The notes under the pieces: generated by a model
What the model was told of the DNA's origin: nothing
Seen by the model: the letters and a program-made list of their open reading frames with translations, nothing else
Databases searched by the model: none
Program-made: the position numbers and the translations under genes
Source: Brachyspira innocens ATCC 29796
GTDB lineage: Bacteria > Spirochaetota > Brachyspiria > Brachyspirales > Brachyspiraceae
DNA: 64,000 nt
Assembly (NCBI RefSeq): GCF_000384655.1
Contig: NZ_ARQI01000126.1
Location: 1 to 64,000 of the forward strand
Direction of reading: 5' to 3'
Part shown: piece by piece, positions 20,235-36,119 of the stretch
How the letters are laid out: each line of letters starts with the position of its first letter
Numbering within the stretch: position 1 is the first letter of the stretch

Positions 20235-20242
20235 AATATATT

Positions 20243-20490: not shown

Positions 20491-20542
20491 TAAATAAAAT
20501 TATTAAATAACAAAAAAAATATTAAACTGACTGCATTAATTT

Positions 20543-21235
20543 TTAAATTCTATTTCTAATATCGTAATAATCATTATTTTTACCAAATCCTATAGTAGGT
20601 AAATGCAGTCCAATCTGAACACCTAGATCAACAGAAGCTAATTTTCCGCTATATTTATATCCTTCTCCTAATAAAGCTAAGTTATCTTTTATCTGATAGT
20701 ATGGTATGTCAAAATTAACATAGAATGATAAACTTACTAAAAAGAAATTTACACCAGTATAAAGTTTTACATAAGGTATAACTAGATTATTAAATCTTGA
20801 TGATAAAGCCTTGTAATCCAATAATGTATAATTGTTTCCTATTGAATATTTTCCAGATAAAGGAAATTTAACACCGCCTCCTATACCTATTTGGAATATT
20901 GAAGGCATCCATTCAAGACTAAGTCCAGTAATAATACTATCAAATTCATGTGTAAAGTCTTGAAATTGAAATGTATCTCTATACCAGCCGAAATCTACTC
21001 CTAATACTACATAATGTAATTTGTTTATTGTAAAATATATTGATGGCTGAAATATAACGCCTACTTCAAATGCAGATTCTGCCTGTTCTGTTAAATAGTC
21101 CGATAAGATACCAGTTTGATAAAAACTAGGACGGCTTCCAGCTAATGGAACATACAAACTCATTACGAAATTATGAGAATATGCTAATGCTGATGTTGTT
21201 ATAAATATAGTTATTAGTATAATACTTTTTTTCAT
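20543..21235 (-). CDS. Secreted barrel-like protein, tandem family member 1
   Basis: A 230-residue protein with a classic signal peptide (MKKSIILITIFITTSALAYS) and a mature part made of alternating strands, with GWYRDTF, GIGGGVKFP, RFNN..IPY.KLYTG and YVNFDIPYYQIKDNL blocks shared by the three neighbours. It is likely an outer-membrane or periplasmic beta-barrel-like protein; the function is unknown. It is the most diverged member: it lacks the GLGLYIPLGGSIPSLYQN segment in exact form (LYVPLAGSRPSFYQT). Its own promoter (TTGACT at 21405-21410 on the minus strand) lies near the end of member 2. Confidence 0.8.
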   Translation of the reverse strand: MKKSIILITIFITTSALAYSHNFVMSLYVPLAGSRPSFYQTGILSDYLTEQAESAFEVGVIFQPSIYFTINKLHYVVLGVDFGWYRDTFQFQDFTHEFDSIITGLSLEWMPSIFQIGIGGGVKFPLSGKYSIGNNYTLLDYKALSSRFNNLVIPYVKLYTGVNFFLVSLSFYVNFDIPYYQIKDNLALLGEGYKYSGKLASVDLGVQIGLHLPTIGFGKNNDYYDIRNRI

Positions 21236-21381
21236 ATTCCTTCCTCAAATGCTAATAAAATTGTCATACAATATAGAATATTTATTTTTTAAAAAATGTT
21301 GGATTAATAAAAGAATAAATTGAAAATCAAAATAAATTACTGTTTAAATATTGCATAAATTAATTTCACAAAACTTTTCAA

Positions 21382-21410
21382 TTAATATGATTTCTCTAAT
21401 GAAGAGTCAA
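21382..21410 (-). promoter_or_regulatory. Promoter of tandem family member 1
   Basis: Read on the minus strand: TTGACT (21410-21405), 17 bases, TATTAA (21387-21382). The TTGACT box is conserved before all four family members, followed by a leader of roughly 140 bases. Confidence 0.5.
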
Positions 21411-21418
21411 ACTATATA

Positions 21419-22105
21419 TTATATTCCATTATCTCCAAATTCAAATATATCTAAATGTAAACCTATTTGAGCCCCTATATCAACAGAAGCTAATTTTCCG
21501 CTATATTTATATCCTTCACCTAATGATGATAAGTTATCTTTTATCTGATAATATGGTATGTCAAAATTAACATAGAATGATAAACTTAAAACAACCAAAT
21601 TTATACCTGTATAAAGTCTTATATATGGTATGATTGTATTGTTAAATCTGCTGTATAAATCGCCTCCGCTTAATTTTGTACCATTGTTATTTTCCAAGTA
21701 TGAGCCTGAAAGAGGAAATTTAACACCGCCTCCTATACCTAATTGGAATATTAAAGGACGCCATTCTAAATTAATTCCAGTCATAATACTGTCAAATTGA
21801 TGTGTAAAGTTTTGTGAAGCAGTTTGAAATTGAAAAGTATCTCTATACCAGCCAAAATCTAATCCCAAAGATATATAATTGTAGCTTATTGCACTCATTT
21901 TAAAATTAACTCTAGGCTGAAATATTACTCCCATTTCAAATGCTGATTTTGGACTTAATGATGAAGTTGTATTTAAATTATCGTTTTGATATAGACTAGG
22001 AATACTTCCTCCTAATGGAATATAAAGACCTAAACCTAAAGAGTGAGAGTAGGCTAATGCCGATGTCATCACAAGTAAGCTAATTAGTATAATAATTTTT
22101 TTCAT
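21419..22105 (-). CDS. Secreted barrel-like protein, tandem family member 2
   Basis: A 228-residue paralogue with signal peptide (MKKIIILISLLVMTSALAYS) and the same ordered blocks: GLYIPLGGSIPSLYQN, SAFEMGVIFQPRV, GWYRDTFQFQ, GIGGGVKFPLSG, IPYIRLYTGINL and NFDIPYYQIKDNL. It is closest to member 1 in its C-terminal half (YKYSGKLASVD) and to member 4 at its N-terminus, so segments may have been exchanged. The role is unknown. A 257-bp repeat element (copy C) has inserted between this gene and its conserved upstream promoter, lengthening the leader to nearly 400 bases. Confidence 0.85.
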   Translation of the reverse strand: MKKIIILISLLVMTSALAYSHSLGLGLYIPLGGSIPSLYQNDNLNTTSSLSPKSAFEMGVIFQPRVNFKMSAISYNYISLGLDFGWYRDTFQFQTASQNFTHQFDSIMTGINLEWRPLIFQLGIGGGVKFPLSGSYLENNNGTKLSGGDLYSRFNNTIIPYIRLYTGINLVVLSLSFYVNFDIPYYQIKDNLSSLGEGYKYSGKLASVDIGAQIGLHLDIFEFGDNGI

Positions 22106-22194
22106 ATTTTTGCCTTAAAACAAATAAAATTTTTTAATAATTTAGAATAATTCTTTTGAAAAAATTGGAGTTAATAAATGACTTTTTAAATATT

Positions 22195-22451
22195 AGACTT
22201 GTTTCAAAACTAATTTTATTTATTAATTGTGGGGACTAGCCCCCACTTCTTTTGCCGCCTAGGCACCTACTCGGTGGTGACCCATACGAAGTACGCCTGC
22301 GGCGAGAAGCAGGCACAGCCCGCAGACGCGAAGGACTGCATATTTATATACTTAAATAATAAGTTATACAACATTTAAAACATTATTTTAATAATTTATA
22401 AATTAGCAAAATTTCACATATAATCTTGTCAAGTACTTTTGAAACAAGTCT
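22195..22451 (-). mobile_element. Dispersed GC-core repeat, copy C: MITE-like, intact ends and target duplication
   Basis: A 257-bp element with 15-bp perfect terminal inverted repeats (AGACTTGTTTCAAAA at 22195-22209, its complement at 22437-22451). It is flanked by ATT on both sides (22192-22194, 22452-22454). The equivalent place in the next tandem unit (about 23461-23472) reads TTTAAATATTGCAT without the element, so this is a clean insertion with a 3-bp duplication. The core has GGGGACTAGCCCCC, CCTAGGCACCTACTCGG and a CTGCGGCGAG...CTGCG region. It encodes no protein, so any mobility would need a transposase from elsewhere. Confidence 0.88.
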
Positions 22452-22494
22452 ATTGCATATATTAATTCCATAAAACTTTTATAAACCTAGTATC

Positions 22495-22522
22495 AGTATA
22501 AAGTTTTTGATATAAAAGTCAA
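22495..22522 (-). promoter_or_regulatory. Promoter of tandem family member 2, separated by the inserted element
   Basis: Read on the minus strand: TTGACT (22522-22517), 16 bases, TATACT (22500-22495). The same sequence stands before member 3. Transcripts from here must cross copy C before reaching the coding region. Confidence 0.6.
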
Positions 22523-22652
22523 TATAAAAGTATATGATTTTTATTATAGCCTATGTTTGTATTTATGGTTTTTGGAAATTATTCTTTTATAATTAAAGTA
22601 TATGTATATATGAAAACATTTTCTATTATTATGTTTTTTGATAAAGATTTAA

Positions 22653-23357
22653 TTATATAAATATAAGTTCTTCTCTTTCATTTTTTCCAAATTGGAATAT
22701 ATCTAAATGTATGCCAAACTGAACACCTATATCAATAGAAAATAACTTACCTGGATATTTATATCCTTCACCCAATGAAGATAAATTATCTTTTATTTGC
22801 ATATTTGATATATCGAAATTAGCATATAATGATAAACTTAGAACAAGCAAATTTATACCTGTATAAAGTCTTATATAAGGTATTAGAGGGTTTTTAAATC
22901 TTGCTGAAACATTTCCTCCATTTAATGCTGTATCATTGTCCCCAATCCAATATTTACCTGTAAAAGGAAATTTAACACCGCCTCCTATACCTACTTGGAA
23001 TATTAAAGGACGCCATTCAAAATTAATTCCAGTCATAAGACTGTCAAATTCATGTGTAAAATCTTGATAATCATATTGAAATTTGAATGTATCTCTATAC
23101 CAGCCTACATCTAAACCTATAGAAATATGATGAATGCCTTTTTTATCTGCCTGAAAACTAACTCTAGGCTGAAATATAACACCTATCTAGAATGCACTAT
23201 GCGGAGATAATGTTATATTTGGATTAGCATTATCATTTTGATAAAGGCTAGGAATACTTCCTCCTAATGGAATATAAAGTCCTAATCCTAAAGAGTTGGA
23301 GTATGCTATAGTTGTTGTCATTATAAATATGGTGATTAGTATAATACTTTTTTTCAT
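22653..23357 (-). pseudogene. Tandem family member 3, broken by one in-frame TAG
   Basis: The frame from the ATG at 23357 (MKKSIILITIFIMTTTIAYS, a signal peptide) to the stop at 22653 is continuous, about 234 codons, except for TAG at 23189-23187. At that place the paralogues have the Glu of SAFEVG/SAFEMG, so one base change (GAG to TAG) explains it. Downstream the family blocks go on in the same frame (IGVIFQPRV, GWYRDTFKFQ, GIGGGVKFPFTG, NFDISNMQIKDNL). No other lesion is seen. It may be a recent pseudogene, a switchable allele or a sequencing error. An internal ATG at 23036 is unlikely to make a secreted product. Confidence 0.85.
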
Positions 23358-23369
23358 ATTTTTCCTCAA

Positions 23370-23690
23370 AACCGATAAAATTGTGTGAGATAGGATAATT
23401 TAGAATATTTATTTTTAAAAAATTCTGATTTAATGAATTGAAAATACAAATAAATGACTGTTTAAATATTGCATAAATTAATTCCATAAAACTTTTATAA
23501 ACCTAGTATCAGTATAAAGCTTTTGATATAAAAGTCAATATAAAATATATAGTTATACCATATATTGGTATTTATAATTTTTTAAACTTTATCTTTTTAT
23601 AATGAAAGTATTAAAAATGTGGATATATAAAAATATACCCCCAAAAATTTTTTTCAATTATACTTGATTTATGTAATAAAATTTAATCTA
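23370..23690. other. 321-base gap between family members 3 and 4
   Basis: Contains the conserved upstream unit of member 3. On the minus strand TTGACT (23538-23533), 16 bases and TATACT (23516-23511) form its promoter, followed by a leader of about 150 bases that includes the empty site matching the copy C insertion. No gene is seen. Confidence 0.6.
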
Positions 23691-24368
23691 TTAATTATTT
23701 TCTCCAAAATTAAATATATCGAAATGCAGCCCTATTTGAGCACCTATATCAACAGAACCTAATTTTCCAGGATAACTATATCCTTTGCCTAATGAATCTA
23801 AGTTATCTTTTATCTGCATAGTTGGTATATCAAAATTAACATATAATGCTAAACTTACAAGAGTTAAATCTATACCTGTATAAAGTCTTACATAAGGTAT
23901 AACAGGATTATTAAATCTTGCTGAGAAACTTCCTCCGCTTAATGCTATCTTATTATTTCCTTCCTTATATTTACCTGTAAAAGGAAATTTAACACCGCCG
24001 CCTATGCCTAATACAAATAGAGAAGGACTCCATCTAAAATTAATACCTGTCATAACAGTATCAAATTCATGTGTAAAGTTTTGCGAATCAGTTTGAAATT
24101 TAAATGTATCTCTATACCAACCTATATCTACACCTATAGATACATCATTATAATCATTTACGTCAAAAGTAACTCTAGGATTAAATATAACTCCAACTTC
24201 AAATGCTGATTTTGGACTTAATGATGAAGTTGGATTTAGATTATCGTTTTGATATAGGCTAGGAATACTTCCTCCTAATGGAATATAAAGACCTAAACCT
24301 AAAGAGTGAGAGTAGGCTAATGCCGATGTCATCAGGAATAAACTGATTAGTATAATGTTTTTTTTCAT
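23691..24368 (-). CDS. Secreted barrel-like protein, tandem family member 4
   Basis: A 225-residue paralogue with signal peptide (MKKNIILISLFLMTSALAYS) and all the family blocks: GLYIPLGGSIPSLYQN, SAFEVGVIFNPRV, GWYRDTFKFQ, GIGGGVKFPFTGKY, IPYVRLYTGIDL and NFDIPTMQIKDNL. The C-terminal half is closest to member 3. Like the others it ends in an aromatic-rich strand region (GLHFDIFNFGENN), fitting an outer-membrane protein, but this is inferred. A promoter-like TTGACT (24585-24580) and TATTAT (24562-24557), 17 bases apart, lie upstream on the minus strand. SD-like AAGGAGAT precedes the ATG. Confidence 0.83.
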   Translation of the reverse strand: MKKNIILISLFLMTSALAYSHSLGLGLYIPLGGSIPSLYQNDNLNPTSSLSPKSAFEVGVIFNPRVTFDVNDYNDVSIGVDIGWYRDTFKFQTDSQNFTHEFDTVMTGINFRWSPSLFVLGIGGGVKFPFTGKYKEGNNKIALSGGSFSARFNNPVIPYVRLYTGIDLTLVSLALYVNFDIPTMQIKDNLDSLGKGYSYPGKLGSVDIGAQIGLHFDIFNFGENN

Positions 24369-24605
24369 ATTTTATCTCCTTAATATTTATAAAAGATGTT
24401 TATGGAATATGATAGAAACATGAAATAATTTAGAATATTGACTTTGGATAAAAAAGTGAAAGAATAAACGAATGTTTTTGAAAATATAGAATTATTAAAA
24501 TAGAAATTTATATATTGCATAAATTAATCCACTGAAACTTTCATAAACCTTGTTTAATAATAAATGTTTTATATATAAAAGTCAATATGAAAATATAAAT
24601 TTTTG

Positions 24606-25868
24606 TTATACTATACCTTGGTACTTATCTATAATAGAAAGAGTCTTTTTAGAAGCCCCGTTATTTTGTATAAGCAAATTATACGCTTTTTCTGCCAGAT
24701 TATTTCTAAGCTCTTCATTCTCATATGCTTCCTGTATGATATCTGCTAGTTTTTCTTTATCCCCACAAGTAAATACAGCCTCTTTCATATACTCGTAAAT
24801 TTCTATAAAGTTATACATATACTTTCCAACTATAACAGCCTTTTTAAAATAAATTGCTTCCAGTATATTGTGTCCGCCCATAGTACCCATAAATGTTCCG
24901 CCCATTATAACCAAGTCAGAAAGTTTATACCAATTTAATAATTCTCCTATAGTGTTTATAATTATTCCGTCTTCTGAACTTTTTTCATAATCGGTATAAA
25001 GAGGCAAGTCGTAATTTAATCTTTCTGCGAGTTTTTGTATATCTTCTCCTCTGTTAATATCTCTTGGAACTATTACAATATATACTTTATCTTTTAGATT
25101 TAGTTTATCTATTGCTTTTAATATTAATTCTTCTTCTCCTGCATGTGTGCTTCCAGCTGTTATTACGAATTTATTTACAGGTATAGTGTTTTCTAGATCA
25201 TCTATCTTTTTTTCGTCTGCATGATATGTTATGTCGTATTTTAAATTTCCTGTAACCGTTATAAGTCCTTCAGGCATTCCTATTGTAATCATGTTTTCTT
25301 TATCTATGCTGCTTTGTGCCAAAATTTTTGTGTACATATTAAAATATGGTTTAAAAAAGAATTTAAAATTTTTATATCCTTTTAATTCTTTTTTGCCTAT
25401 CCTTCCGTTAATCATATATAATGGTATAAGTTTTTTATGAAGAGTGTATATAAGAGTAGGCCATATTTCTATCTCTGCTATCATAACATATTCTGGAGAT
25501 ATTAAATTAATAAGTTTATTAATCATATGAGGATAATCTAGAGTAAGATAAAAAAGCTCTACTTTATCACCATAATTTTTTCTTGCTATATCATATCCCC
25601 CTACAGTAGTAGTAGACAAATAAACATTATATCCTCTTTCTATTAAAGTAAATACTATCTCTCTTACTGCTACTATTTCTCCTACACTTACAGCATGTAT
25701 CCAAACAGCATTTTTATTATTTTCTTTAGGATATATAAACCCCAGTCTCGATAAAGCACCTTTTCTAATAGGCTTATTAAATATCATCATAATAAAAAAT
25801 GATATAAATATAAAAGGATATAGGATATATCCAAAAATAGTATATATGCACATTAAAATTTTCTGCAT
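24606..25868 (-). CDS. waaA: Kdo transferase-like glycosyltransferase (WaaA/KdtA family)
   Basis: Inner-membrane enzyme that adds Kdo from CMP-Kdo to lipid A precursors. The 420-residue protein has an N-terminal membrane anchor (residues 1-32), the VWIHAVSVGE motif near 53-62, AEIEIWP near 130-136 and a C-terminal donor site with GGTF and GGHNILE. The family length is about 420. Oddity: where many WaaA proteins read G-E-R-x-G with the presumed catalytic Glu, this one reads A-L-S-R-L-G near residue 40, so activity should not be assumed. The small membrane protein upstream is 30 bases away and probably in the same transcript. Confidence 0.85.
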   Translation of the reverse strand: MQKILMCIYTIFGYILYPFIFISFFIMMIFNKPIRKGALSRLGFIYPKENNKNAVWIHAVSVGEIVAVREIVFTLIERGYNVYLSTTTVGGYDIARKNYGDKVELFYLTLDYPHMINKLINLISPEYVMIAEIEIWPTLIYTLHKKLIPLYMINGRIGKKELKGYKNFKFFFKPYFNMYTKILAQSSIDKENMITIGMPEGLITVTGNLKYDITYHADEKKIDDLENTIPVNKFVITAGSTHAGEEELILKAIDKLNLKDKVYIVIVPRDINRGEDIQKLAERLNYDLPLYTDYEKSSEDGIIINTIGELLNWYKLSDLVIMGGTFMGTMGGHNILEAIYFKKAVIVGKYMYNFIEIYEYMKEAVFTCGDKEKLADIIQEAYENEELRNNLAEKAYNLLIQNNGASKKTLSIIDKYQGIV

Positions 25869-25898
25869 TAAAAAAACCTATTAATTAAAAAATGTTAA

Positions 25899-26189
25899 TT
25901 AAAAAATAGCAATAATTGTTAATATAATAATAACCATATACATAAAAAAAGAAATTAAGGCTTTTACAACAGCATGCTGCTTTCTAGTACCCCATTCGCA
26001 TCTGAAAGATACAATGATAAATAAAGCAAATAATAATATTTCTATAGCATTAATTATAATAAAAATGGCACTATATATACCTGTTTTTATATTATTATGC
26101 TCTATAATATAAAAAGCTGCTATAGGAAAAAGCATAAGTATAGAGGCATTAACTAATTTATGTATTAAAATATATTTATTAATATTCAT
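25899..26189 (-). CDS. Small three-segment membrane protein
   Basis: A 96-residue protein with hydrophobic segments at about 13-28, 35-62 and 74-96, separated by a short basic loop (RCEWGTRKQHAVVK). It is probably an inner-membrane protein. I recognise no family. It precedes waaA by 30 bases on the same strand, which suggests a shared transcript, but nothing else supports a role in lipid A synthesis. Confidence 0.65.
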   Translation of the reverse strand: MNINKYILIHKLVNASILMLFPIAAFYIIEHNNIKTGIYSAIFIIINAIEILLFALFIIVSFRCEWGTRKQHAVVKALISFFMYMVIIILTIIAIF

Positions 26190-26339
26190 AACATAGATTA
26201 TACTAAATAAATATATTATGTCAATTAATTGCTAAATCAATTTTAATAATTTTTTAAGTAAAATATTAGTATGTTTGAAATGATTTATAATATATCAAGA
26301 TATTTAAATAATAATTCTTATAATTTTATATTACTTTGT

Positions 26340-26753
26340 TTATAAACTTTTATAAATATCTTTTAAAGTAGTTTTTTTAAGTTCTTTTTCCATAGCATTT
26401 TGAATATTATCCAGTTTTGGCTGAAGTATTTCATTAATTTTACTTCCCACAGGACATTTTTTATTTGGGTTTTCATGAAAGCTGAAAAGTTTTCCTTCAT
26501 CTAGGCTTTCTACAGCATTAAATATATCAAGTAATGTAATATTTTCTGTTTTTTTATTCAGACTTATTCCTCCAGTTCCTCTTTTTACAGTGATAATATT
26601 TGCTTTTTGAAGCTGTATTAATATATTTCTTATAATAACAGGATTAACTTGAACACTTTCTGATATAAAATTTGATGTTATCTTTTCATCTTTAAACTCT
26701 AATATGCAAAGCAATGTATGAACCGCTATTGTAAATCTTGAACTAATCTTCAT
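26340..26753 (-). CDS. Rrf2-family regulator (YwnA-like)
   Basis: DNA-binding regulator of 137 residues. The N-terminal winged helix reads KISSRFTIAVHTLLCILEF, then ITSNFISESVQVNPVIIRNILIQLQKANII and the wing RGTGGISL, the Rrf2 pattern. Only one Cys (in NKKCPVG) lies in the region where Fe-S members have three, so it is unlikely to hold a cluster and resembles YwnA/YwgB-type members. It is divergent from the macrodomain/SirTM operon. Four perfect TTGTAA-N9-TTACAA sites in the two nearby promoters are its likely operators, as B. subtilis ywnA is likewise linked to ywnB. Confidence 0.88.
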   Translation of the reverse strand: MKISSRFTIAVHTLLCILEFKDEKITSNFISESVQVNPVIIRNILIQLQKANIITVKRGTGGISLNKKTENITLLDIFNAVESLDEGKLFSFHENPNKKCPVGSKINEILQPKLDNIQNAMEKELKKTTLKDIYKSL

Positions 26754-26840
26754 TAAATTATCCTTAAAATTATTAAAAATTATAATATATTTATTTTCTT
26801 AATGCAAACAAAAAAATTAAATAAAGAAATTTAAATTTTG

Positions 26841-26899
26841 TTGTAATACTTGACATTACAATTGTAGTATAGTATTATTGTAATGATTATAGTTACAAT
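26841..26899 (+). promoter_or_regulatory. Promoter with two Rrf2-type operators, macrodomain-SirTM operon
   Basis: TTGACA (26850-26855), 17 bases, TATTAT (26873-26878) form a near-consensus promoter. Operator 1, TTGTAA-N9-TTACAA, occupies 26841-26861 and covers the -35 box; operator 2, the same consensus, occupies 26878-26898 just past the -10 box. Binding at either would block RNA polymerase, so repression by the adjacent Rrf2 protein is inferred. Confidence 0.85.
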
Positions 26900-26910
26900 A
26901 AGGATAAACA

Positions 26911-27684
26911 ATGAATAAATTATTATTTTTAATAGATTATCTTATTAAAGAAGGTAATTATGAATATAATAAAGAATTAGAAAATGCATTAAAAGAAAAT
27001 AATGAAGAAGTACTGTATAACTATTTCAGATATTTAATGAATATAAGACTTCCAAACAATATAAGCGAAGAATATCTTAAAATAGAAGATGAATATTTAC
27101 AAGAGAGATTAAAAAATAAAATAATAACAAATATAGAAGATATAAAACCTATAAGAGATAATTTATATTTATGGCAGGGAGACATAACAACATTAAATAT
27201 AGATGCTGTAGTTAATGCTGCCAATTCTTCTATGCTTGGCTGTTTTATTCCGCTTCATAAATGCATAGATAATGCCATACATAGTGCTTCTGGTACTAGA
27301 TTAAGATTATGCCTAAATAACATAATGAAAGGAAAAACTGAGGATACTGGAAAATGTATAATAACTAAAGCATTTAATTTACCAAGTAAATATATACTTC
27401 ATACAGTAGGACCTATAATACAGAATAGTGTTTCAAAAAAAGATGAAGAGCTTTTATATAACTGTTATAAATCATGCTTAGAAACTGCAAAAGACAATAA
27501 TATAAAAAGCATAGCATTTTGCTGTATATCTACAGGAGAGTTTAAGTTTCCAAACAAGGAGGCTTCTCAGATAGCGGTAAATGCTGTAAAAGATTTTTTA
27601 AATAATAGTAAATATGATATAAAGATATTATTTAATGTATTTAAAGATTTGGATTATGAACTTTATTATAATATTTTAAAATAA
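26911..27684 (+). CDS. Zinc-containing macrodomain ADP-ribosyl hydrolase (SirTM partner)
   Basis: Expected to remove ADP-ribose put on a protein by the sirtuin encoded next. The 257-residue protein has an N-terminal helical part of about 80 residues, then a macrodomain: QGDITTLNIDAVVNAAN at 89-105, the zinc signature GCFIPLHKCID at 110-120 (Cys111, His116, Cys118 as likely ligands), HTVGP at 164-168 and ISTGEFKFP at 206-214. This signature marks the Zn-macro class found with SirTM. AAGGAT precedes the ATG. Its stop is 15 bases from the sirtuin start. The substrate is not shown by sequence. Confidence 0.9.
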   Translation: MNKLLFLIDYLIKEGNYEYNKELENALKENNEEVLYNYFRYLMNIRLPNNISEEYLKIEDEYLQERLKNKIITNIEDIKPIRDNLYLWQGDITTLNIDAVVNAANSSMLGCFIPLHKCIDNAIHSASGTRLRLCLNNIMKGKTEDTGKCIITKAFNLPSKYILHTVGPIIQNSVSKKDEELLYNCYKSCLETAKDNNIKSIAFCCISTGEFKFPNKEASQIAVNAVKDFLNNSKYDIKILFNVFKDLDYELYYNILK

Positions 27685-27699
27685 TTAGGAGAATCATAA

Positions 27700-28542
27700 A
27701 TGAATGAGCAATTAGAATTAATAAAAAAATTAAAATCAAGTATAGAAAAATCAGATTATATATTAATAGGGGCAGGAGCAGGACTTTCTGTTTCTGCAGG
27801 ATTTTCTTATGACGGTGAGAGATTCGATAAATATTTTAGTGAATATAAAGATAGATACGGTTTAACTGACATGTATAGTGCAGGATTTTATAATTATCCT
27901 ACTTTTGAAGATTTTTGGGGATATTTTTCGCTTCTTGTGTATGTTAATAGATATGATATACCAGCAGATGAAACTCATTTAAATCTATTAGAAATAATAA
28001 AAAATAAGAATTATTTTGTTATAACAACAAATGTTGACGGAAGATTTGAAGAGGCAAAATTTGATAAAGAAAAATTATTTAAAGTTCAAGGAGACTATTC
28101 TCTTTTTCAATGTTCTCTTCCATGCAGAAATGAAACTTTTTATAATGAAAAACAAATAAGAGAAATGGTAAAGTCAAGAAAAGATTTGAAAATACCAAAA
28201 GAACTTATACCAAAATGTCCTCATTGCAGCAGAAATATGTCAATGAACTTAAGATGCGATAATACTTTTGTGCAAGATGATAATTGGTATCATTCTATGG
28301 ATAGATATAAAAAATTCTTAAATGAAGCAGAAAATAAAAATATATTATTTTTAGAATTAGGGGTAGGTTATAATACACCTGCTATAATAAAATATTCTTT
28401 CTGGGATATGGCTTTAAAAAATGAAAACTCAATTTATGCATCTGTAAATTTAAATGATTCATATGCACCTGATAATTTGAAAGAACGCTCTATATGTATA
28501 GATGATGATATATCTAAAGTTTTAAAATATATAAAAAGTTAA
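27700..28542 (+). CDS. SirTM-class ADP-ribosylating sirtuin
   Basis: NAD+-dependent enzyme, by family a protein ADP-ribosyltransferase rather than a deacylase. The 280-residue protein has the Rossmann NAD loop GAGAGLSVSAGFSYDGERF at 24-42, TDMYSAGFY at 56-64, TTNVDGRF at 109-116 and KVQGDYSLFQCS at 128-139. Gln130 stands where classical sirtuins have the catalytic His, as in SirTM. Four zinc Cys are at 138, 142, 173 and 176. AGGAGAATCATAA precedes the ATG. In known loci SirTM modifies a lipoylated GcvH-like carrier; no such carrier or lipoate ligase is in this window, so the target here is open. Confidence 0.9.
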   Translation: MNEQLELIKKLKSSIEKSDYILIGAGAGLSVSAGFSYDGERFDKYFSEYKDRYGLTDMYSAGFYNYPTFEDFWGYFSLLVYVNRYDIPADETHLNLLEIIKNKNYFVITTNVDGRFEEAKFDKEKLFKVQGDYSLFQCSLPCRNETFYNEKQIREMVKSRKDLKIPKELIPKCPHCSRNMSMNLRCDNTFVQDDNWYHSMDRYKKFLNEAENKNILFLELGVGYNTPAIIKYSFWDMALKNENSIYASVNLNDSYAPDNLKERSICIDDDISKVLKYIKS

Positions 28543-28551
28543 AAATTTTAG

Positions 28552-28612
28552 TTGTAATATTTGACATTACAACTAAATCATGTTATTATAATTGTAACAA
28601 TAGCTATTACAA
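28552..28612 (+). promoter_or_regulatory. Promoter with two Rrf2-type operators, ywnB-like gene
   Basis: TTGACA (28561-28566), 17 bases, TATTAT (28584-28589). Operators TTGTAA-N9-TTACAA at 28552-28572, over the -35 box, and at 28592-28612, just past the -10 box. The layout copies that of the macrodomain-SirTM promoter, so both units should answer to the same regulator. Confidence 0.85.
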
Positions 28613-28658
28613 CTCTTTAATTTAAAGAAAATATTTTATATAAAAAAGGAGAATTAAA

Positions 28659-29288
28659 ATGAAAATTGCAATAATAGCAGCAAACGGAAGAGCCGGAAAA
28701 TTAATCATGAATGAGGCATTAGAAAGAGGGCTAGATGTTACAGCCATAGTAAGAGATAAAACAAAAATAAATAATTCAAAAGCAAAAGTTATAGAAAAAG
28801 ATTTATTCGATTTGACAAAAGATGATTTGAAAGAATTTGATACTGTTGTAAGTGCATTCGGAGTATGGGAAGAAAAAGAACTCAATAAGCATTCGTCTGC
28901 AATGGAGCATTTATGTAATATACTTGCAAATACAAACATAAGACTTATGGTAGTTGGAGGAGCTGGAAGTTTATATATAGATAGCGGCAAAAAATTAATG
29001 GATAGTGAAACTTTTCCTGATATATTCAAACCTCTTGCAAAAAGTATGTCAAAATCATTTGATATATTAAAAAATAAAAAAGATGTTTTATGGACTTATG
29101 TATCTCCTTCTGCTGATTTCCAAGCTGATGGAGAAAAAACAGGACAATACAATATAGGATTTGATGAATTACTTTTTAATTCAAAAGGTGAAAGTTCTAT
29201 TAGTTATGCTGATTATGCTGTAGCTTTTGTTGATGAGATACAAAATAAAAAACATTTAAATCAAAGAATAACATTCTGTTGTAAATAA
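28659..29288 (+). CDS. NAD(P)-binding Rossmann protein, YwnB-like
   Basis: A 209-residue atypical SDR/NmrA-type protein. The N-terminus has the dinucleotide loop AANGRAGKLI (residues 8-17) and ends the second strand with IVRDKTK; DTVVSAFG near 65-72 and VVGGAGSLY near 96-104 follow the pattern of NAD(P)-binding epimerase-like proteins. There is no catalytic YxxxK motif in the usual place. AAGGAG stands before the ATG. In B. subtilis the relative ywnB is next to the Rrf2 gene ywnA. It may reduce a reactive compound or sense NADPH. A terminator follows. Confidence 0.85.
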   Translation: MKIAIIAANGRAGKLIMNEALERGLDVTAIVRDKTKINNSKAKVIEKDLFDLTKDDLKEFDTVVSAFGVWEEKELNKHSSAMEHLCNILANTNIRLMVVGGAGSLYIDSGKKLMDSETFPDIFKPLAKSMSKSFDILKNKKDVLWTYVSPSADFQADGEKTGQYNIGFDELLFNSKGESSISYADYAVAFVDEIQNKKHLNQRITFCCK

Positions 29289-29303
29289 CAATTATTAAAA
29301 AAT

Positions 29304-29346
29304 ATAGAAGTTAATAGTATATTATTTTTTATCTATTAACTTCTAT
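29304..29346. terminator. Bidirectional terminator between convergent genes
   Basis: ATAGAAGTTAATAG (29304-29317) pairs with CTATTAACTTCTAT (29333-29346) around an AT-rich loop containing a T-run. It serves the ywnB-like gene and probably the convergent flavodoxin gene. Confidence 0.75.
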
Positions 29347-29372
29347 GAATAATAAATATTTTAATTTTTATA

Positions 29373-30737
29373 TTATTTAATATTTTTCACATTGGCATTA
29401 TTAATAATCTTTTTATAAGGCATTAAAATATATTCATTCATTTTGTCTTTCATTTTCTTTTGTATTGAAGGAATTGATATTAAAGCACCTACTAATTTCA
29501 TCTGCAGCATTTTCATTCTTTGTTTTTGAGGGAAGTCATAGATATGATGTTTTTTATAGTATTTATGATCTTCTTTCATAAGTCCCTGCATTATGTATAT
29601 CAAGTCCCTGAATATCTTCATTCCTCCTACACCATAAAAGTTTTTAGGACGAGTGCATTTATTATCCATAGCATATTTCATTATAGATGATAACTTTGAA
29701 AGTTCATTGCAGGCATCATCATTATAATCATATGCAATATGAGTGAGAAAATTACCTCCCACTTCAGAACGTGATTCTATAAGTGTTTGCAAATTATATT
29801 CTCTTTCATAATCCCCACTTATTATATATCCTATAGGCATACCTTCTGTAACAGTTCTATGCCCATTGCAGAATTGCCTGTCATCATAAATTTTAAAACT
29901 CGAATGCGTATAATGATTTTCTATTGTAAAAGCATATATAATCGAATCGGCCTTCTGTATTTCATTTCTCAAAAAATCATCAAATCCATCTTTATAAACA
30001 CATTTGCCAGTAATAGCACAGCCGAAACAACCAAGACAGCCTCCATGAAAATTGTATTCTCTTATATTTATTTCTCTAGTTTTATAAGGAAATACTGACT
30101 TAAAATCTTCAATCATATTTCTTAAACTTTCATCATTATTGGTACAGTTAGTTAGTATTAAAACATCTTTTGAATTATCTTTTTCTTTTGAATTGTTAGT
30201 ATATTTTCTCTTATATATAATTTTTTCTTTTCTATCTGATATATCTGAATTAATATTTAAATTATTCTCTATACAAAAAATTAAATAATTAAAAAAGTTT
30301 ATAGCATCTTCCTGACCTTCTTTTTTCATGAGGTCTTCCATGTCAGCAGAAAGCCCTCTTATATATTTTAATCCTAAATCTAAACAATTTTCTTCCATAA
30401 ACTTATGTGCTGTAATATCATAAAAATGCTTTGAAGTAGAAAACTGCGTTGCAAATTTATTTTTTATGTTAATATTATTTTCTTTTAATAATTCTATAAA
30501 TCTATGCAGCTGATATGGTACTAAAAAAGTGTATACAGGATAAGAAAATATAATTAGATCTGTTTTTTCAAGTTCTTCTTTTATCTCGTTAAAGTTTTTT
30601 TCATAATATTTTATTTTTTGCCCAACGTTTAAAAATGAAAATTTATGCTCTGTAAATAGTTTTTCTAAAAATAATAAAGTTTGTAAAGTTATGCTGTTAT
30701 TGCCTTTGGGGCTTCCATTTATAACTAGAATGTTCAT
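29373..30737 (-). CDS. Protein with two flavodoxin-like domains
   Basis: A 454-residue protein. The first half is a flavodoxin/FMN-reductase fold: NILVINGSPKGNNSIT at 2-17 is the FMN phosphate loop and IIFSYPVYTFLVPYQL near 82-97 the second flavin loop. The second half begins KDVLILTNCTNNDESLRN near 190 and carries GGCLGCFGCAITGKCVYKDGF near 233-253, the Cys-rich segment of NAD(P)H-dependent oxidoreductases, some of which bind Fe-S clusters there. Its own phosphate loop looks degraded. A fused two-domain electron-transfer protein is inferred; a gene duplication with divergence is the simplest history. The electron donor and acceptor are unknown. Confidence 0.75.
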   Translation of the reverse strand: MNILVINGSPKGNNSITLQTLLFLEKLFTEHKFSFLNVGQKIKYYEKNFNEIKEELEKTDLIIFSYPVYTFLVPYQLHRFIELLKENNINIKNKFATQFSTSKHFYDITAHKFMEENCLDLGLKYIRGLSADMEDLMKKEGQEDAINFFNYLIFCIENNLNINSDISDRKEKIIYKRKYTNNSKEKDNSKDVLILTNCTNNDESLRNMIEDFKSVFPYKTREINIREYNFHGGCLGCFGCAITGKCVYKDGFDDFLRNEIQKADSIIYAFTIENHYTHSSFKIYDDRQFCNGHRTVTEGMPIGYIISGDYEREYNLQTLIESRSEVGGNFLTHIAYDYNDDACNELSKLSSIMKYAMDNKCTRPKNFYGVGGMKIFRDLIYIMQGLMKEDHKYYKKHHIYDFPQKQRMKMLQMKLVGALISIPSIQKKMKDKMNEYILMPYKKIINNANVKNIK

Positions 30738-31058
30738 TTTTTAGTCCTTTAATTAATAATACTATTATATTTAATAATAATAAAAGCTCAATATAAAAAT
30801 TAAAATATAATTTATTAAAGATATTTGTCTGATAATAAAGTTTTTATATGCTTAAGTTTTACATAAAATCATTCATATGTTATACACTTTATGATACTTA
30901 ATCCTATACATTTAGCATGTCATACAGAATGCTTTATTTCAAATTAGACCATATTAAATAAATATATTTTAGGATTAATTTTTTGTTAAAATATTTATAT
31001 TTTTTTAAAATAGTATTATAATAGTATACTTCTATTATTTAATAAGGTTTTTATTTTT
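30738..31058. other. 321-base gap between divergent genes
   Basis: Very AT-rich spacer between the divergent flavodoxin and antiporter genes. I see no RNA gene, ORF or repeat copy. It presumably holds both promoters; a TATTATAAT box at about 31014-31022 could serve the antiporter gene. Confidence 0.4.
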
Positions 31059-32654
31059 ATGAATTTTTCAATATTATTATCATCTATAATAATTATTCTT
31101 TGTATAATTGTAAGTAAAATTTCTACAAAAGTAGGAGTTCCTTCTCTTTTGCTTTTCCTTGTTTTGGGAATGATATTCGGTACAGACGGAGTTTTAAAAA
31201 TACGTTTTGATGATTATAAAATAGCAGAACAGCTTTGTACTATAACATTGATATTCATTATGTTTTACGGAGGATTTGGTACTAATTGGAAAGCGGCAAA
31301 ACCTGTTGCAAGCAAGGCATTTTTGCTTTCATTTATAGGTACTTTTATCACGTCCATGGTTACTGGGGTATTATGCTACTTTGTACTTAAATTCGGACTT
31401 TTTGAAAGTTTTTTAATAGGCTCTGTTATAGGTTCTACGGATGCAGCTTCGGTATTCTCTATATTACGTTCAAGAAGTCTTAACCTTAAAGACGGTTTAG
31501 CTTCATTGCTTGAGCTTGAGAGCGGAAGTAACGACCCTATGTCATATATGCTTACTGTTATATTTTTGGGGCTTTTAGGAAAAACATTAACTAGTCCGTT
31601 ATCTATTATATACATGGTTTTTGCTCAGATAGTTTTTGCTTTGGCAGTGGCAGCTTTGGTATCATTTATGGCCTATAATATGCTTAGGAGATTCAAATTC
31701 CCAGTTAATGGCCTTGATACAATATTTGTACTTGCTGTGGCATTGCTTTCATATTCTCTTTCTTCTATAATAGGCGGAAACGGATATTTAACTGTTTATA
31801 TAGTTGGAATAGTGCTTGGAAACAGCAGCATCAAAAATAAAGTTACTTTGGTTCATTTCTTTGACGGAGTTACTGGACTTATGCAGATGGTTCTTTTCTT
31901 CTTGTTAGGACTTTTATCTTTTCCTTCAAGAATATTTAATGTGGCACCTACTGCTATATATGTAGCACTTTTTGTAACTTTTGTGGCAAGACCTATAGCC
32001 GTATTTGCTATACTAACTCCTTTTAAGGTATCATTAAAAAAACAATTGCTTGTTATGTGGGCTGGACTTAGAGGTGCTGCTTCGATAGTATTTGCTATAT
32101 TTGTAATAGTTAATAATAATTCTATAAGTTATGATATATTTCACATAGTATTTTTTCTAGCTATAATATCGGTATTATTTCAAGGTACACTGCTTCCTAT
32201 TATAGCCAAAAAGCTGGATTTGGTTGATTCCGATGAAAATGTACTTAAAACTTTCAACGACTTTGTTGATGATTCTGATATGGAGCTTATACAGATAACA
32301 ATACCGCCGCATCATCATTGGGTTGGAAGACCTATAATGGAGATAGAGCTTCCAGAGGATTCTATTATTGTAACTATAGAGAGGGGAAATACAACTATTA
32401 TACCTAATGGAAAAACTGTTATTGAGGCTGGAGATGTTGTTATACTTAATGCTAAAAGAACTAAGTATTATGATATAAGTTTAAGAGAGATACATATAAA
32501 TCTTCATCATCCTTGGAGAGATAAGGAATTGAAAGATTTAAATTTACCTAAAAATAATTTGATAGTTATGATAAAAAGAGATGGCGGAACTGTTATACCA
32601 AGAGGAAATACTGTGATAAGAGATAAAGATATTGTATTATTAAGAGATGTATGA
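31059..32654 (+). CDS. Monovalent cation/proton antiporter, CvrA (NhaP2) type with RCK-C domains
   Basis: Membrane exchanger of K+ or Na+ for H+ (CPA1 family). The 531-residue protein has about 12-13 hydrophobic segments in residues 1-385, with GSTDAASVF near 126-134 and ELESGSNDPMSY near 152-163, the ion-binding residues of CPA1 antiporters. The tail (about 400-531) has two TrkA-C/RCK-C-like repeats: HHHWVGRPIMEIELPEDSIIV and HHPWRDKELKDLNLPKNNLIV. These tails bind nucleotide ligands in relatives. It is a single gene with a strong terminator. Confidence 0.9.
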   Translation: MNFSILLSSIIIILCIIVSKISTKVGVPSLLLFLVLGMIFGTDGVLKIRFDDYKIAEQLCTITLIFIMFYGGFGTNWKAAKPVASKAFLLSFIGTFITSMVTGVLCYFVLKFGLFESFLIGSVIGSTDAASVFSILRSRSLNLKDGLASLLELESGSNDPMSYMLTVIFLGLLGKTLTSPLSIIYMVFAQIVFALAVAALVSFMAYNMLRRFKFPVNGLDTIFVLAVALLSYSLSSIIGGNGYLTVYIVGIVLGNSSIKNKVTLVHFFDGVTGLMQMVLFFLLGLLSFPSRIFNVAPTAIYVALFVTFVARPIAVFAILTPFKVSLKKQLLVMWAGLRGAASIVFAIFVIVNNNSISYDIFHIVFFLAIISVLFQGTLLPIIAKKLDLVDSDENVLKTFNDFVDDSDMELIQITIPPHHHWVGRPIMEIELPEDSIIVTIERGNTTIIPNGKTVIEAGDVVILNAKRTKYYDISLREIHINLHHPWRDKELKDLNLPKNNLIVMIKRDGGTVIPRGNTVIRDKDIVLLRDV

Positions 32655-32729
32655 TATTTTGACATTTATTTTTTACCATATCTTTTATAAATGGTTATAA
32701 TAAATAAGTATTTTTCATAAATAATCTCC

Positions 32730-32778
32730 CACTTTTATTTAGCTTTACCCTTTTAAAGCTAAATAAAAGTGACTTTTT
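32730..32778 (+). terminator. Strong terminator after the antiporter gene
   Basis: A 17-bp perfect stem, CACTTTTATTTAGCTTT (32730-32746) with its complement at 32755-32771, followed by a T-rich stretch. Confidence 0.88.
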
Positions 32779-32797
32779 ATTTCTATCCGCATTATAA

Positions 32798-32826
32798 TTG
32801 ACTTTTTTACATTTTGTTAGTATACT
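32798..32826 (+). promoter_or_regulatory. Promoter of the methyltransferase gene
   Basis: TTGACT (32798-32803), exactly 17 bases, TATACT (32821-32826). Transcription would start near 32833, leaving a leader of about 25 bases to the ATG at 32857. Confidence 0.65.
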
Positions 32827-32856
32827 CAAAATAAATATTTATTGGATACCTTGTTT

Positions 32857-33945
32857 ATGTTAGATGATTTTTATACAGATGATATAAAAGCTATAGATGC
32901 CAGATTTGAAGCTCAGAAAATAGCTTTTGCACCTATAGTATTTCAAGCAGCAAAATGTATGATAGATTTTAATATATTAAATATTATAGAAAATAGCGGT
33001 GAAAATGGAATAACTGAAGAAGATATATTAAAAAATACAAGTTTATCTCCTTATGCTCTTTCAGTTTTGCTTGAATTAAGTTTGGGTCTTTGTCTGATAA
33101 AAATAGTTAAAAATTCTAATCCTTATAAATATGTTTTGGGTAAAATAGGTTTTTTCCTTATCAATGATAATCTTACAAAGGTAAATATTAATTTTGTTAA
33201 TGATATATGTTATAACGGCATGTTTTATTTAAAAGACAGTCTTATAAATTCCAAACCAGAAGGACTAAAAGTTTTTGGAAATTATGAAACCATATATAAA
33301 GGACTTTCATCAATACCTGAAAAAAGTAGAAAGAGTTGGATAGATTTTGATAATTATTATTCTGATAATTGCTATTATAGTTCTCTTCCTATCATATTTG
33401 AGAAAAAAAGAAAAAATATAATGGATATAGGCACTAATACAGCAAAATTTTCTATATCAGCACTTAAATATGATAATGATGTAAAATGTTCATTAATAGA
33501 TTTAGAAGGACAGATAGAGCTTGCCAAAAAAAATATAGAAGATAATCATTTTTCAGATAGGGTAGAGTATTTCCCTATGAATATATTAGGCAATGAAACC
33601 CTGCTTCCTTATAACTGCGATGTGGTATGGATGAGTCAGTTTTTGGATTGTTTTTCTATAGAGCAGATTAAGTTTATAATGAGAAAAGTAAAATCTGTAT
33701 CAGATAAAGATACAGACATATTTATTTTAGAGCCGCTTTGGGATAAGCAGCAGCATTTATCTGCAGCTTTTTCTATACAGGCAACTTCCTTATATTTTAC
33801 AGCAATTGCTAACGGAAGCAGTAAAATGTATCCGTATAAACTTCTGAAAGACACAATAGAAGAAGAGGGATTTAAACTTGTAAATGAATATCATAGAATA
33901 GGAAATACATATCATTCGCTTCTTAATTTTAAAATTTTAGTATAA
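32857..33945 (+). CDS. SAM-dependent methyltransferase with winged-helix N-domain
   Basis: About 362 residues from ATG 32857. A TTG at 32842 is only about nine bases from the predicted transcription start, so it is less likely; neither has a clear ribosome site. The N-terminal part (IVFQAAKCMIDFNILNIIE, ITEEDILKNTSLSPYALSVLLELS) is the winged-helix dimer domain of O-methyltransferase-type enzymes. The SAM site follows in IMDIGTNTAKFSISAL, then DVVWMSQFLDCFS, with EPLWDKQ in the usual strand-5/6 region. The substrate is unknown. Its end overlaps the convergent GGDEF gene by 17 bases. Confidence 0.82.
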   Translation: MLDDFYTDDIKAIDARFEAQKIAFAPIVFQAAKCMIDFNILNIIENSGENGITEEDILKNTSLSPYALSVLLELSLGLCLIKIVKNSNPYKYVLGKIGFFLINDNLTKVNINFVNDICYNGMFYLKDSLINSKPEGLKVFGNYETIYKGLSSIPEKSRKSWIDFDNYYSDNCYYSSLPIIFEKKRKNIMDIGTNTAKFSISALKYDNDVKCSLIDLEGQIELAKKNIEDNHFSDRVEYFPMNILGNETLLPYNCDVVWMSQFLDCFSIEQIKFIMRKVKSVSDKDTDIFILEPLWDKQQHLSAAFSIQATSLYFTAIANGSSKMYPYKLLKDTIEEEGFKLVNEYHRIGNTYHSLLNFKILV

Positions 33946-34756
33946 CGGATTTGTTTCTTCCAGTTTCTTTGGCATTATATAATGATTGATCTGCCTGATG
34001 TATAAAAGTTCTTAAACTTATATTTCCTTCTTTTACAGCACCGCCTAAAGAAGCAGTAGCTTTCAGTGAATATTCATCAGTAGAGAAATCGCTTTCCATT
34101 AGATTTATTCTTATTTTTTCCATAGCATTATAAAGTTCATCTCTTTTATTTATATCAAAAACCACAATAAACTCTTCTCCGCCGTATCTTCCAAGCACAG
34201 ATTTATGTACAATACTTTTTAATGCTTCCTTCATCACTTTTGAGGCATTCTTTAATACATGATCGCCTATATTATGTCCGTAGCTGTCATTATAATGTTT
34301 GAATTTATCCAAGTCTATTATTACAATAGAATATATATGTCCGCTAATTTCTTTTTCCTCAAGATATTTTAGTATATATCCTCTATTATAGAGACCAGTA
34401 AGTTTATCTCTGTTTGCCAAAAATGATAACTTTTCACTGTAAAGTATTATAGATAAGTAATTTATTAATATTTCAATTTTTTCTTTATCTTTTGTGCTAT
34501 TAATTAGTATAAAGCCGAAATTATTTCCTCTTGCAAATAATTTATATTTTTTATTATTATCTTTATTATCTATTACAGATTTATTTGCAGATACATACCA
34601 TAAATTAGCTTCATCGTTACCTTCTTTATAAAAATAAACAGCAAAACTTTCTATTACATTTTTTGAGCTAGCCTCAAATGTTTTTATTATTCCGTCTACA
34701 GAGAAAGGCTCTGGTATTTCATTTAACGTATTAATAATTTTTATAATGTCATTCAT
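33929..34756 (-). CDS. Diguanylate cyclase (GGDEF-domain protein)
   Basis: Makes cyclic di-GMP from GTP. The 275-residue protein has an N-terminal half of about 110 residues resembling a GAF/PAS-like sensor without a membrane segment. The GGDEF domain follows: DKLTGLYNRGYIL near 119-131, VIIDLDKFKHYNDSYGHNIGDHVL near 150-173, and the active loop RYGGEEF near 197-203. The Gly-Gly-Glu-Glu-Phe form is catalytically competent in other proteins. No inhibitory RxxD site is obvious five residues upstream of GGEEF. The stimulus is unknown. Confidence 0.92.
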   Translation of the reverse strand: MNDIIKIINTLNEIPEPFSVDGIIKTFEASSKNVIESFAVYFYKEGNDEANLWYVSANKSVIDNKDNNKKYKLFARGNNFGFILINSTKDKEKIEILINYLSIILYSEKLSFLANRDKLTGLYNRGYILKYLEEKEISGHIYSIVIIDLDKFKHYNDSYGHNIGDHVLKNASKVMKEALKSIVHKSVLGRYGGEEFIVVFDINKRDELYNAMEKIRINLMESDFSTDEYSLKATASLGGAVKEGNISLRTFIHQADQSLYNAKETGRNKSVILKF

Positions 34757-34824
34757 AATGATGTATTATACTCAAATAGATATAATTGTAAATAGTAATA
34801 TATATAAAAAATATTAAAAAATAA

Positions 34825-34856
34825 AAAAGGACTCATAAAAATGAATCCTTTTTATA
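34825..34856 (-). terminator. Terminator after the M23 peptidase gene
   Basis: AAAAGGACTCAT with ATGAATCCTTTT form a stem with one mismatch around AAAA, with a T-run on the minus-strand side. Confidence 0.7.
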
Positions 34857-34880
34857 TGTATATTTTTAATAATTATATTA

Positions 34881-36119
34881 TTATCTTCTTCCTCTTAAAA
34901 ACTTCTTAATAGGTATAAAGTCAGCAGGATTCAAAGCTACACCATTTCTTCTAACTTCAAAGTGTAAATGGCTTCCAGTAGATCTTCCAGTGCTTCCCAT
35001 TCTTCCTATCATAACACCAACGCCTACATTTGCTCCTGCTTTTGTAGTTATAGAATTAAGGTGTCCGTAATATGTAGTGTATCCTTTATCATGTCTTACT
35101 ATTACCAAATTTCCGTATCCGCCGCTGTATCCTGCAAATATAACTTTACCTTTTCTTGCGGCATATACTGGTGTATTTAGTCTTCCTGGTATATCAACAC
35201 CCATATGTTTAGTTCTTACTCCAGTAATAGGGTGTACTCTGTATCCGAATACGCTGCTTATTCTAGTTATAGTTGTAGGAAGACTGAACATCTGTCCGAA
35301 TTTATCTATTCTTTCATCTAAAGTATATTTAGCACCAGGTAGGAATATATCGTCTCCTTCTTCTATATTTGAAGCATCAGATATTTTATTGAAAGTAAGT
35401 ACTCTTTTTAATGAAACATCATATCTTTCTGTAACATCTTCTATGGATTCGCCTTTTTTCATAGTATATAATAGACCATTTCTGTTAGGCACTATGATTT
35501 TTTGTCCAGGTCTTAATCTATTTGCATTGCTTATTTTATTAACACTCACTAAAGTATCCAAATTAGCACCTATTTTTCTTGATATAACAGTGAGATTATC
35601 TCCTTCTTCTATTATATACTCATCATATTTCATTCCTATAGTTCCGTCTCCTACCAATGTATTATCAGAAGTTATAGTATTATAAAATATATCTGTGGCA
35701 TTTTCTATTGTTACAGCAGAAGTTACAGTTGGAACATCAGATAAACTAGATTCAGGGCTGCTGGATAATTGTTCAGGCGACATTTCATCTAATACTTTAT
35801 TATATGCTACATTAGAAGGCAGTTTATCCTTTGGAAGTATTGCTGCATTAGAAGTCTGACGCATATTCATTATTAAGAAATTGGCAAGAAATAGAAATAG
35901 TGAAAATGATACAACAGTTAATACGAATTTCTTAATTAAACTTGAAAACATTTTGTTTGGTTTATTTTCATTATACCTTGTAGAATGTACAAAAGTGGTT
36001 CTTATTCTAGGCGAATTATTTTGAAATTTTGACTTGATACCTTCGAGTATATTTTCTATATGCAGAAATATACCTTTGCTTTTTCTGATTTTTGTGTACT
36101 TAAATTTGTTATTTTTCAT
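34881..36119 (-). CDS. LysM/M23 peptidoglycan endopeptidase
   Basis: Cell-wall hydrolase. The 412-residue protein has a cytoplasmic tail of about 68 residues, one membrane segment near 69-88 (VLTVVSFSLFLFLANFLIMN), two LysM domains (about 171-212 and 218-260), and a C-terminal M23 domain: FGYRVHPITG near 292-301, HMGVDIPG near 306-313 and HLHFE near 383-387. These contain the zinc ligands (H..D and HxH) of lysostaphin-type enzymes, so activity is expected. It is anchored in the inner membrane facing the periplasm. It may act in cell division or elongation; context gives no more. Confidence 0.92.
   Translation of the reverse strand: MKNNKFKYTKIRKSKGIFLHIENILEGIKSKFQNNSPRIRTTFVHSTRYNENKPNKMFSSLIKKFVLTVVSFSLFLFLANFLIMNMRQTSNAAILPKDKLPSNVAYNKVLDEMSPEQLSSSPESSLSDVPTVTSAVTIENATDIFYNTITSDNTLVGDGTIGMKYDEYIIEEGDNLTVISRKIGANLDTLVSVNKISNANRLRPGQKIIVPNRNGLLYTMKKGESIEDVTERYDVSLKRVLTFNKISDASNIEEGDDIFLPGAKYTLDERIDKFGQMFSLPTTITRISSVFGYRVHPITGVRTKHMGVDIPGRLNTPVYAARKGKVIFAGYSGGYGNLVIVRHDKGYTTYYGHLNSITTKAGANVGVGVMIGRMGSTGRSTGSHLHFEVRRNGVALNPADFIPIKKFLRGRR

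Follow-up and report, generated by a model that had tools for sequence, protein, structure and literature searches.

What does a class M sirtuin (SirTM) modify in a bacterium that does not encode GcvH-L, which in its lipoylated form is the sole known SirTM target? This question is raised by a locus of Brachyspira innocens ATCC 29796 at positions 26340-29288 of a 64,000-nt stretch of contig NZ_ARQI01000126.1 (the window). The list of open reading frames (ORFs) contains four intact genes there: a divergent Rrf2 regulator, a zinc-dependent macrodomain protein (Zn-Macro) followed by SirTM, and a YwnB-like reductase. The locus is likely a lipoylation-independent, electrophile-induced, reversible ADP-ribosylation module, formed by a minimal SirTM/Zn-Macro pair inserted in a thiol-switch regulon of the SifR/YwnA type. 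The genes, their catalytic and metal motifs, the operators, the genome-wide absence of lipoylation genes, and the recurrence of the arrangement are directly evident from sequence.

The genome lacks the lipoylation machinery

An initial annotation of the locus had noted that a lipoyl carrier and its loader are missing, and this absence extends to the whole genome (3.28 Mb in 130 contigs, completeness score 100%). Profile searches, including the genome-wide search for GcvH-L, LplA, and LipM proposed by that annotation, gave no match: neither GcvH-L nor LplA is found in the window or the genome, and no GCV_H or LplA/LipB/LipM domain is found in the whole genome, with controls matching in 13 of 14 genomes. 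No GcvH-L/LplA pair was found under the same operator elsewhere. A lipoyl carrier is also absent, as the three biotin/lipoyl domains of the genome are all otherwise assigned: two carry the biotin motif EAMKME beside carboxyltransferase and decarboxylase subunits, and the third is part of an RnfC/PduS-like protein. GcvH is missing from all 13 SirTM-bearing Brachyspira, and the ligase fold is absent in 18 of the 19 Brachyspira tested and present in 9/9 genomes from elsewhere in the order and phylum. Among the SirTM-bearing genomes tested, mostly clostridial metagenome-assembled genomes (MAGs), lipoate ligase was not found in 22 of 30, with MAG incompleteness as a caveat. Since GcvH, lipoate ligase or transferase, and a lipoyl domain are all lacking, the predicted modification is not the lipoylation-dependent one on GcvH-L and would have to fall on another target; the proposal of a different ADP-ribosylation target is, given these absences, a sound inference.

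The writer and eraser retain complete catalytic motifs

The two-gene pair is real: both ORFs are present with complete catalytic and zinc motifs (Table 1), and 15 bases separate the Zn-Macro stop from the SirTM start. In SirTM, Q130-G131 (QG in place of HG), N111/D113, and R185 align with Gln137, Asn118/Asp120, and Arg192 of the Streptococcus pyogenes (Spy) protein, which confirms the initially noted replacement of the catalytic His. Residues G221-P227 (GVGYNTP) fit the GVGx[NT]TP motif, from the class M motifs listed in PMC4518038. No Pfam sirtuin model matches the protein and NCBIfam sirtuin matches fall far under their cut-offs, as expected for a divergent class. The protein is 94% identical to that of Brachyspira sp. 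G79, and its linkage to a Zn-macrodomain is kept in 13/13 Brachyspira loci.

Zn-Macro scores 316 bits against the NCBIfam model NF003163 (protein-ADP-ribose hydrolase, cut-off 272). Approximately 80 residues lie ahead of the macro core, consistent with the N-terminal helical extension of Zn-Macro proteins; the sequence NAAN precedes the zinc loop, whose CX4HXC motif is given in PMC11490716, and D120/H124 form the Asp/His dyad. The nearest solved macrodomain is MorMacro (8rsi, E 5e-77), which comes from a minimal pair and cannot demodify GcvH-L. The basic patch that contacts GcvH-L (R172/K175/R183 in Spy; R175/R176 in Staphylococcus aureus, Sau) is not conserved in the alignment (Spy GPRITKGHHVSPIRADLL and Sau GPQIRRLPVSKMNQDLL versus GPIIQNSVSKKDEELL in the window).

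SifR-type operators join the pair to ywnB

Each of the two promoters carries a pair of palindromic operators. The perfect form TTGTAAT-N7-ATTACAA occurs twice in the window, with 0 expected from window shuffles, and these are the only two perfect sites in the 3.28 Mb genome, one per promoter. This motif equals the TGTAA-N9-TTACA operator bound by SifR and HypR, and it lies upstream of ywnB, a proven direct target that SifR represses (PMC9218516). The YwnA/YwnB-type regulon proposed initially is supported, with operators common to both promoters as the linkage. YwnB was correctly identified and placed downstream, but it is not a plain member of the operon, as a separate promoter with a separate set of operator copies precedes it. 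The form TTGTAATNNTTGACATTACAA is present in 12 genomes of Brachyspira, against 0 for reversed-pattern controls, and O2 of the macro-sirTM promoter is recognizable across the SirTM loci of the genus, even at L013, whose O1 has degenerated. Genome-wide, no further regulon member stands out beyond the two operator pairs (156 matches at up to two mismatches versus 167 for the reversed control). In SirTM-less Brachyspira, a flavodoxin/ferredoxin gene (L051, L054, L066) or an NhaC-type antiporter gene (L055, L064) can also follow the operator, which indicates that the SifR-like regulon varies between species.

The divergent regulator beside the pair, correctly recognized as Rrf2, has only two cysteines, Cys16 and Cys100, both kept in 16/16 Brachyspira orthologs; Cys16 is also present in some clostridial homologs. 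As in SifR and YwnA, a cysteine lies in the CPV motif and cluster ligands are lacking. Against the HypR equivalog model NF041852, the protein scores 65 bits, below the curated cut-off of 180. SifR is a quinone sensor of Streptococcus pneumoniae that reacts through the Cys of its CPV motif (PMC9218516), and the HypR switch is a Cys33-Cys99' disulfide (PMC10715087). The signal here is probably a quinone-like electrophile or a thiol oxidant, because the window Rrf2 has Cys100 and the conserved Cys16, and SifR and HypR react through such cysteines. A second YwnA-type Rrf2 paralog (G000:C125:33311-33700, L035) is 45% identical, keeps both cysteines, and has no nearby operator.

According to PMC9218516, pneumococcal YwnB, the best PDB match of the reductase, reduces quinones with NAD(P)H. 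The window YwnB is 89% identical to that of a SirTM-less genome (G005) and 83% to those of SirTM-bearing close relatives (L002-L005, L038), whose SirTMs are 94-96% identical. This mismatch is suggestive of recombination at the locus.

Table 1. Genes, residues, and regulatory sites of the locus (window coordinates)
Feature	Position	Strand	Basis
Rrf2-family repressor, YwnA/SifR/HypR type	26340..26753	-	PF02082, 111 bits; best PDB matches 1ylf and YwnA 1xd7
Codon of Cys100 (in CPVG), counterpart of SifR C102 (quinone-sensing) and HypR Cys99	26454..26456	-	alignment to YwnA NPKCPVG; PMC9218516, PMC10715087
O1 of macro-sirTM promoter, TTGTAAT-N7-ATTACAA, over -35 box	26841..26861	.	perfect palindrome
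Predicted sigma-A promoter of macro-sirTM, TTGACA-N17-TATTAT	26850..26878	+	sequence reading; conserved in relatives
O2 of macro-sirTM promoter, TTGTAATGATTATAGTTACAA, 1 mismatch, begins in -10 box	26878..26898	.	operator pattern scan
Zn-dependent macrodomain, predicted protein ADP-ribosyl hydrolase	26911..27684	+	NF003163 above cut-off; PDB 8rsi/5kiv/8rsm
Zn-loop C111-X4-H116-X-C118	27241..27264	+	aligns with C116/H121/C123 of Spy (numbering that includes D125)
Class M sirtuin SirTM, predicted ADP-ribosyltransferase	27700..28542	+	best PDB match 5a3a (SpySirTM), E 7e-60; invariant columns with Spy
Gln130, in place of sirtuin catalytic His	28087..28089	+	alignment with Spy
O1 of ywnB promoter, over -35 box	28552..28572	.	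perfect palindrome
Predicted sigma-A promoter of ywnB, TTGACA-N17-TATTAT	28561..28589	+	sequence reading; conserved in relatives
O2 of ywnB promoter	28592..28612	.	near-perfect copy, at or just after -10
YwnB-like reductase	28659..29288	+	PF13460; best PDB match 4r01 (pneumococcal YwnB), E 2e-61

Rfam detects no structured RNA in 20000-36000, and no separate small ORF was found on the plus strand of the operon's intergenic stretches. At 20543-24368 (minus strand), the window contains tandem paralogs of a secreted or outer-membrane-like protein of approximately 228 residues, one copy of which appears broken at ∼22653-23369.

The pair is a cassette at a fixed site in Brachyspira

Genomic neighborhood analysis of SirTM across the genus, another check proposed initially, reveals a fixed site with a common rrf2/ywnB context. 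SirTM is present in 13/25 Brachyspira, with ywnB downstream in 12 of the 13 and rrf2 adjacent in 11. In SirTM-less species, rrf2, one double operator, and ywnB lie directly together, and in one of them (G002) ywnB is followed by the flavodoxin-like gene that also follows it in the window. Since the same operator separates rrf2 from ywnB in these species, the pair is a cassette in a pre-existing SifR-like regulon. In the Rrf2 and YwnB trees, genomes with the cassette are interspersed with genomes without it (G002 next to G016, for instance), which indicates repeated gain or loss at a single site; the repeated promoters flanking the cassette offer a possible deletion route. The Brachyspira SirTMs form one clade among gut Bacillota sequences, in a tree that samples few other spirochaetes, and this position fits horizontal acquisition. 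In G021, an ordinary sirtuin-like ORF (L172:727-1476, minus strand) lies ∼4.5 kb from the divergent SirTM/Macro pair.

Some clostridial SirTM loci share the regulator class or point to a possible substrate

Two more lineages (L123/L139 and L128) encode Rrf2, YwnB, Macro, and SirTM together on a single strand, but in a different gene order. At the clostridial SirTM loci L090, L102, and L137, a regulator of the same Rrf2 class is accompanied by the double operator, which at L076 precedes the run of genes that contains SirTM. Operator matches at clostridial L092, L095, and L135 were set aside, being away from any pair promoter or without a second copy.

An ACGX-repeat peptide and its radical-SAM protein are encoded at 17 of the 53 clostridial loci whose upstream sequence spans at least 3.7 kb. 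Clostridial SirTM operons starting with the peptide (TIGR04341) and a radical-SAM/SPASM maturase (TIGR04340) are L072, L073, L074, L075, L079, L087, L092, L094, L102, L104, L107, L108, L119, L120, L122, L127, L131, L137, and L145. Four radical-SAM proteins score 596-606 bits (TIGR04340 cut-off 400) and the peptide 85 bits (TIGR04341 cut-off 28). A nitroreductase and a PNPOx/ferredoxin protein usually lie between these genes and the Zn-Macro/SirTM pair, and an HxlR (DUF24) regulator is often nearby. No paper linking the ACGX system with SirTM/Zn-Macro was found in the open-access literature. SirTM genes without a Zn-macrodomain within 2 kb, at loci with at least 0.9 kb upstream, are those of L072, L076, L085, L097, L100, L104, L116, L117, L119, L124, L125, L133, L143, L145, L146, and L148; four of them sit in ACGX operons, as a writer without an adjacent eraser.

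These operons supply an operon-encoded substrate candidate. It is conceivable, though rather unlikely, that in gut anaerobes SirTM/Zn-Macro is a lipoate-free electrophile/thiol-stress system under SifR-type or HxlR/DUF24 thiol regulators, with a substrate carrier that differs between lineages: the ACGX-repeat peptide, rich in cysteine and modified by the radical-SAM protein, would replace lipoyl-GcvH-L as the ADP-ribosylated redox carrier in Clostridia, and in Brachyspira the substrate would be an unlinked protein.

Proposed mechanism and alternative explanations

For the Brachyspira proteins, we infer the repressor-operator binding, the signal, and the ADP-ribosyltransferase activity. Reduced Rrf2 would sit on the two palindromes of each promoter (at -35 and at -10/start) and block both the pair and ywnB. 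Quinones or similar electrophiles or oxidants would alkylate or oxidize Cys100 and release Rrf2, upon which the quinone reductase YwnB and a reversible ADP-ribosylation switch would be produced together. SirTM would act as the writer and Zn-Macro as the eraser of mono-ADP-ribose, on a target other than GcvH-L encoded outside the operon. Several points weigh against this scheme. Genome G021, the exception among the Brachyspira tested and the carrier of the most divergent SirTM locus, has LplA beside an E1/E2/E3 dehydrogenase operon, and at L005 rrf2 does not adjoin the pair. With its two conserved cysteines, Rrf2 may switch through a HypR-like disulfide (oxidant sensing) instead of SifR-like monothiol alkylation, and the YwnA-type paralog on G000:C125 might share the operators.

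The probability is negligible that the locus represents the lipoylation-coupled system already described, its GcvH-L and LplA genes lying in another part of the genome. SirTM and Macro are close homologs of their S. pyogenes and S. aureus counterparts, but GCV_H and LplA/LipB/LipM domains are missing, the biotin/lipoyl domains comprise two biotin carriers and one RnfC/PduS-like protein, and the genome has no third perfect operator; this system is refuted here unless the assembly, in spite of its score, misses genes. Membership in the Rrf2 family and weak matches to NsrR/IscR models would also allow an iron-sulfur sensor, with a regulon answering iron or nitric oxide rather than thiol stress. 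The three-cysteine cluster motif is absent, however, the best matches are YwnA and HypR, and the operator is of the SifR/HypR type, which makes such a sensor very improbable.

Other sirtuins take part in phage defense, and the patchy occurrence of the cassette at a fixed site would suit a toxin-antitoxin-like or anti-phage module, with a SirTM that uses up NAD or alters an essential target and a macrodomain that serves as antidote. This is quite improbable: PADLOC gives no match, the tight stress operators differ from toxin-antitoxin self-regulation, and SirTM lacks any Zn-Macro in ∼16/74 clostridial loci with room for one, which a lethal writer should not tolerate. The co-regulated, NAD(P)-binding YwnB could itself be the main target, ADP-ribosylated by SirTM and restored by the macrodomain, as the co-occurrence of the four genes in Brachyspira and, reordered, in the two further lineages would allow. 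It is an unlikely target, since ywnB and its operator persist in SirTM-less Brachyspira, pneumococcal YwnB functions without the pair (PMC9218516), and most clostridial SirTM loci are without YwnB.

Comparison with known systems

The initial statement that GcvH-L and LplA accompany SirTM at known loci is not supported, as independent pairs are already described in PMC4518038 and PMC11490716. According to these sources, lone SirTM/Zn-Macro pairs have been described since 2015 and occur in Clostridiaceae, Spirochaetaceae, Enterococcus faecalis, Treponema pedis, and Methanobrevibacter oralis. Lack of GcvH-L alone is therefore not a new variant, and the pair taken alone belongs to a known type. 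The novelty lies in SifR-type operator control, a demonstrated lack of protein lipoylation, and a recurrent regulator/operator partnership. The targets of lone pairs were stated to be open in 2024 (PMC11490716). Brachyspira almost wholly lacks lipoylation of proteins but has retained the pair, its motifs intact and its stress operators tight, and this excludes lipoyl-GcvH-L as the answer in the genus. It is also a clean system, with an inducer class predicted from SifR, a regulon of two promoters in this genome, and close relatives that either carry or lack the cassette at this site.

The Brachyspira locus resembles the minimal operon of T. pedis, E. faecalis, and M. oralis in its adjacent genes, its lack of GcvH-L/LplA, and its full set of catalytic motifs. 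Unlike these, for which the passages of PMC4518038 and PMC11490716 on lone pairs give no regulator, it has SifR-type operators, a ywnB partner, and a genome without lipoylation genes. With the extended operon of S. aureus and S. pyogenes (GcvH-L, LplA2, OYE, LLM), it shares a homologous writer and eraser, an oxidoreductase partner, and a link to redox stress, but it has no carrier or ligase, the GcvH-L-contacting basic residues are not conserved, and YwnB takes the place of OYE/LLM. The SifR regulon of S. pneumoniae and YwnAB of Bacillus subtilis provide the Rrf2 protein with its CPV cysteine, the TGTAA-N9-TTACA operators, and the ywnB target (PMC9218516), whereas Brachyspira adds an ADP-ribosylation pair to the regulon, two operator copies per promoter, and the extra conserved Cys16. 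Finally, the ACGX-repeat peptide system (TIGR04340/TIGR04341) of gut Clostridia, which has no TIGR04340 match above cut-off in Brachyspira, is encoded there in an operon that ends in Zn-Macro and SirTM, and at L102 and L137 it shares both operator and regulator with Brachyspira.

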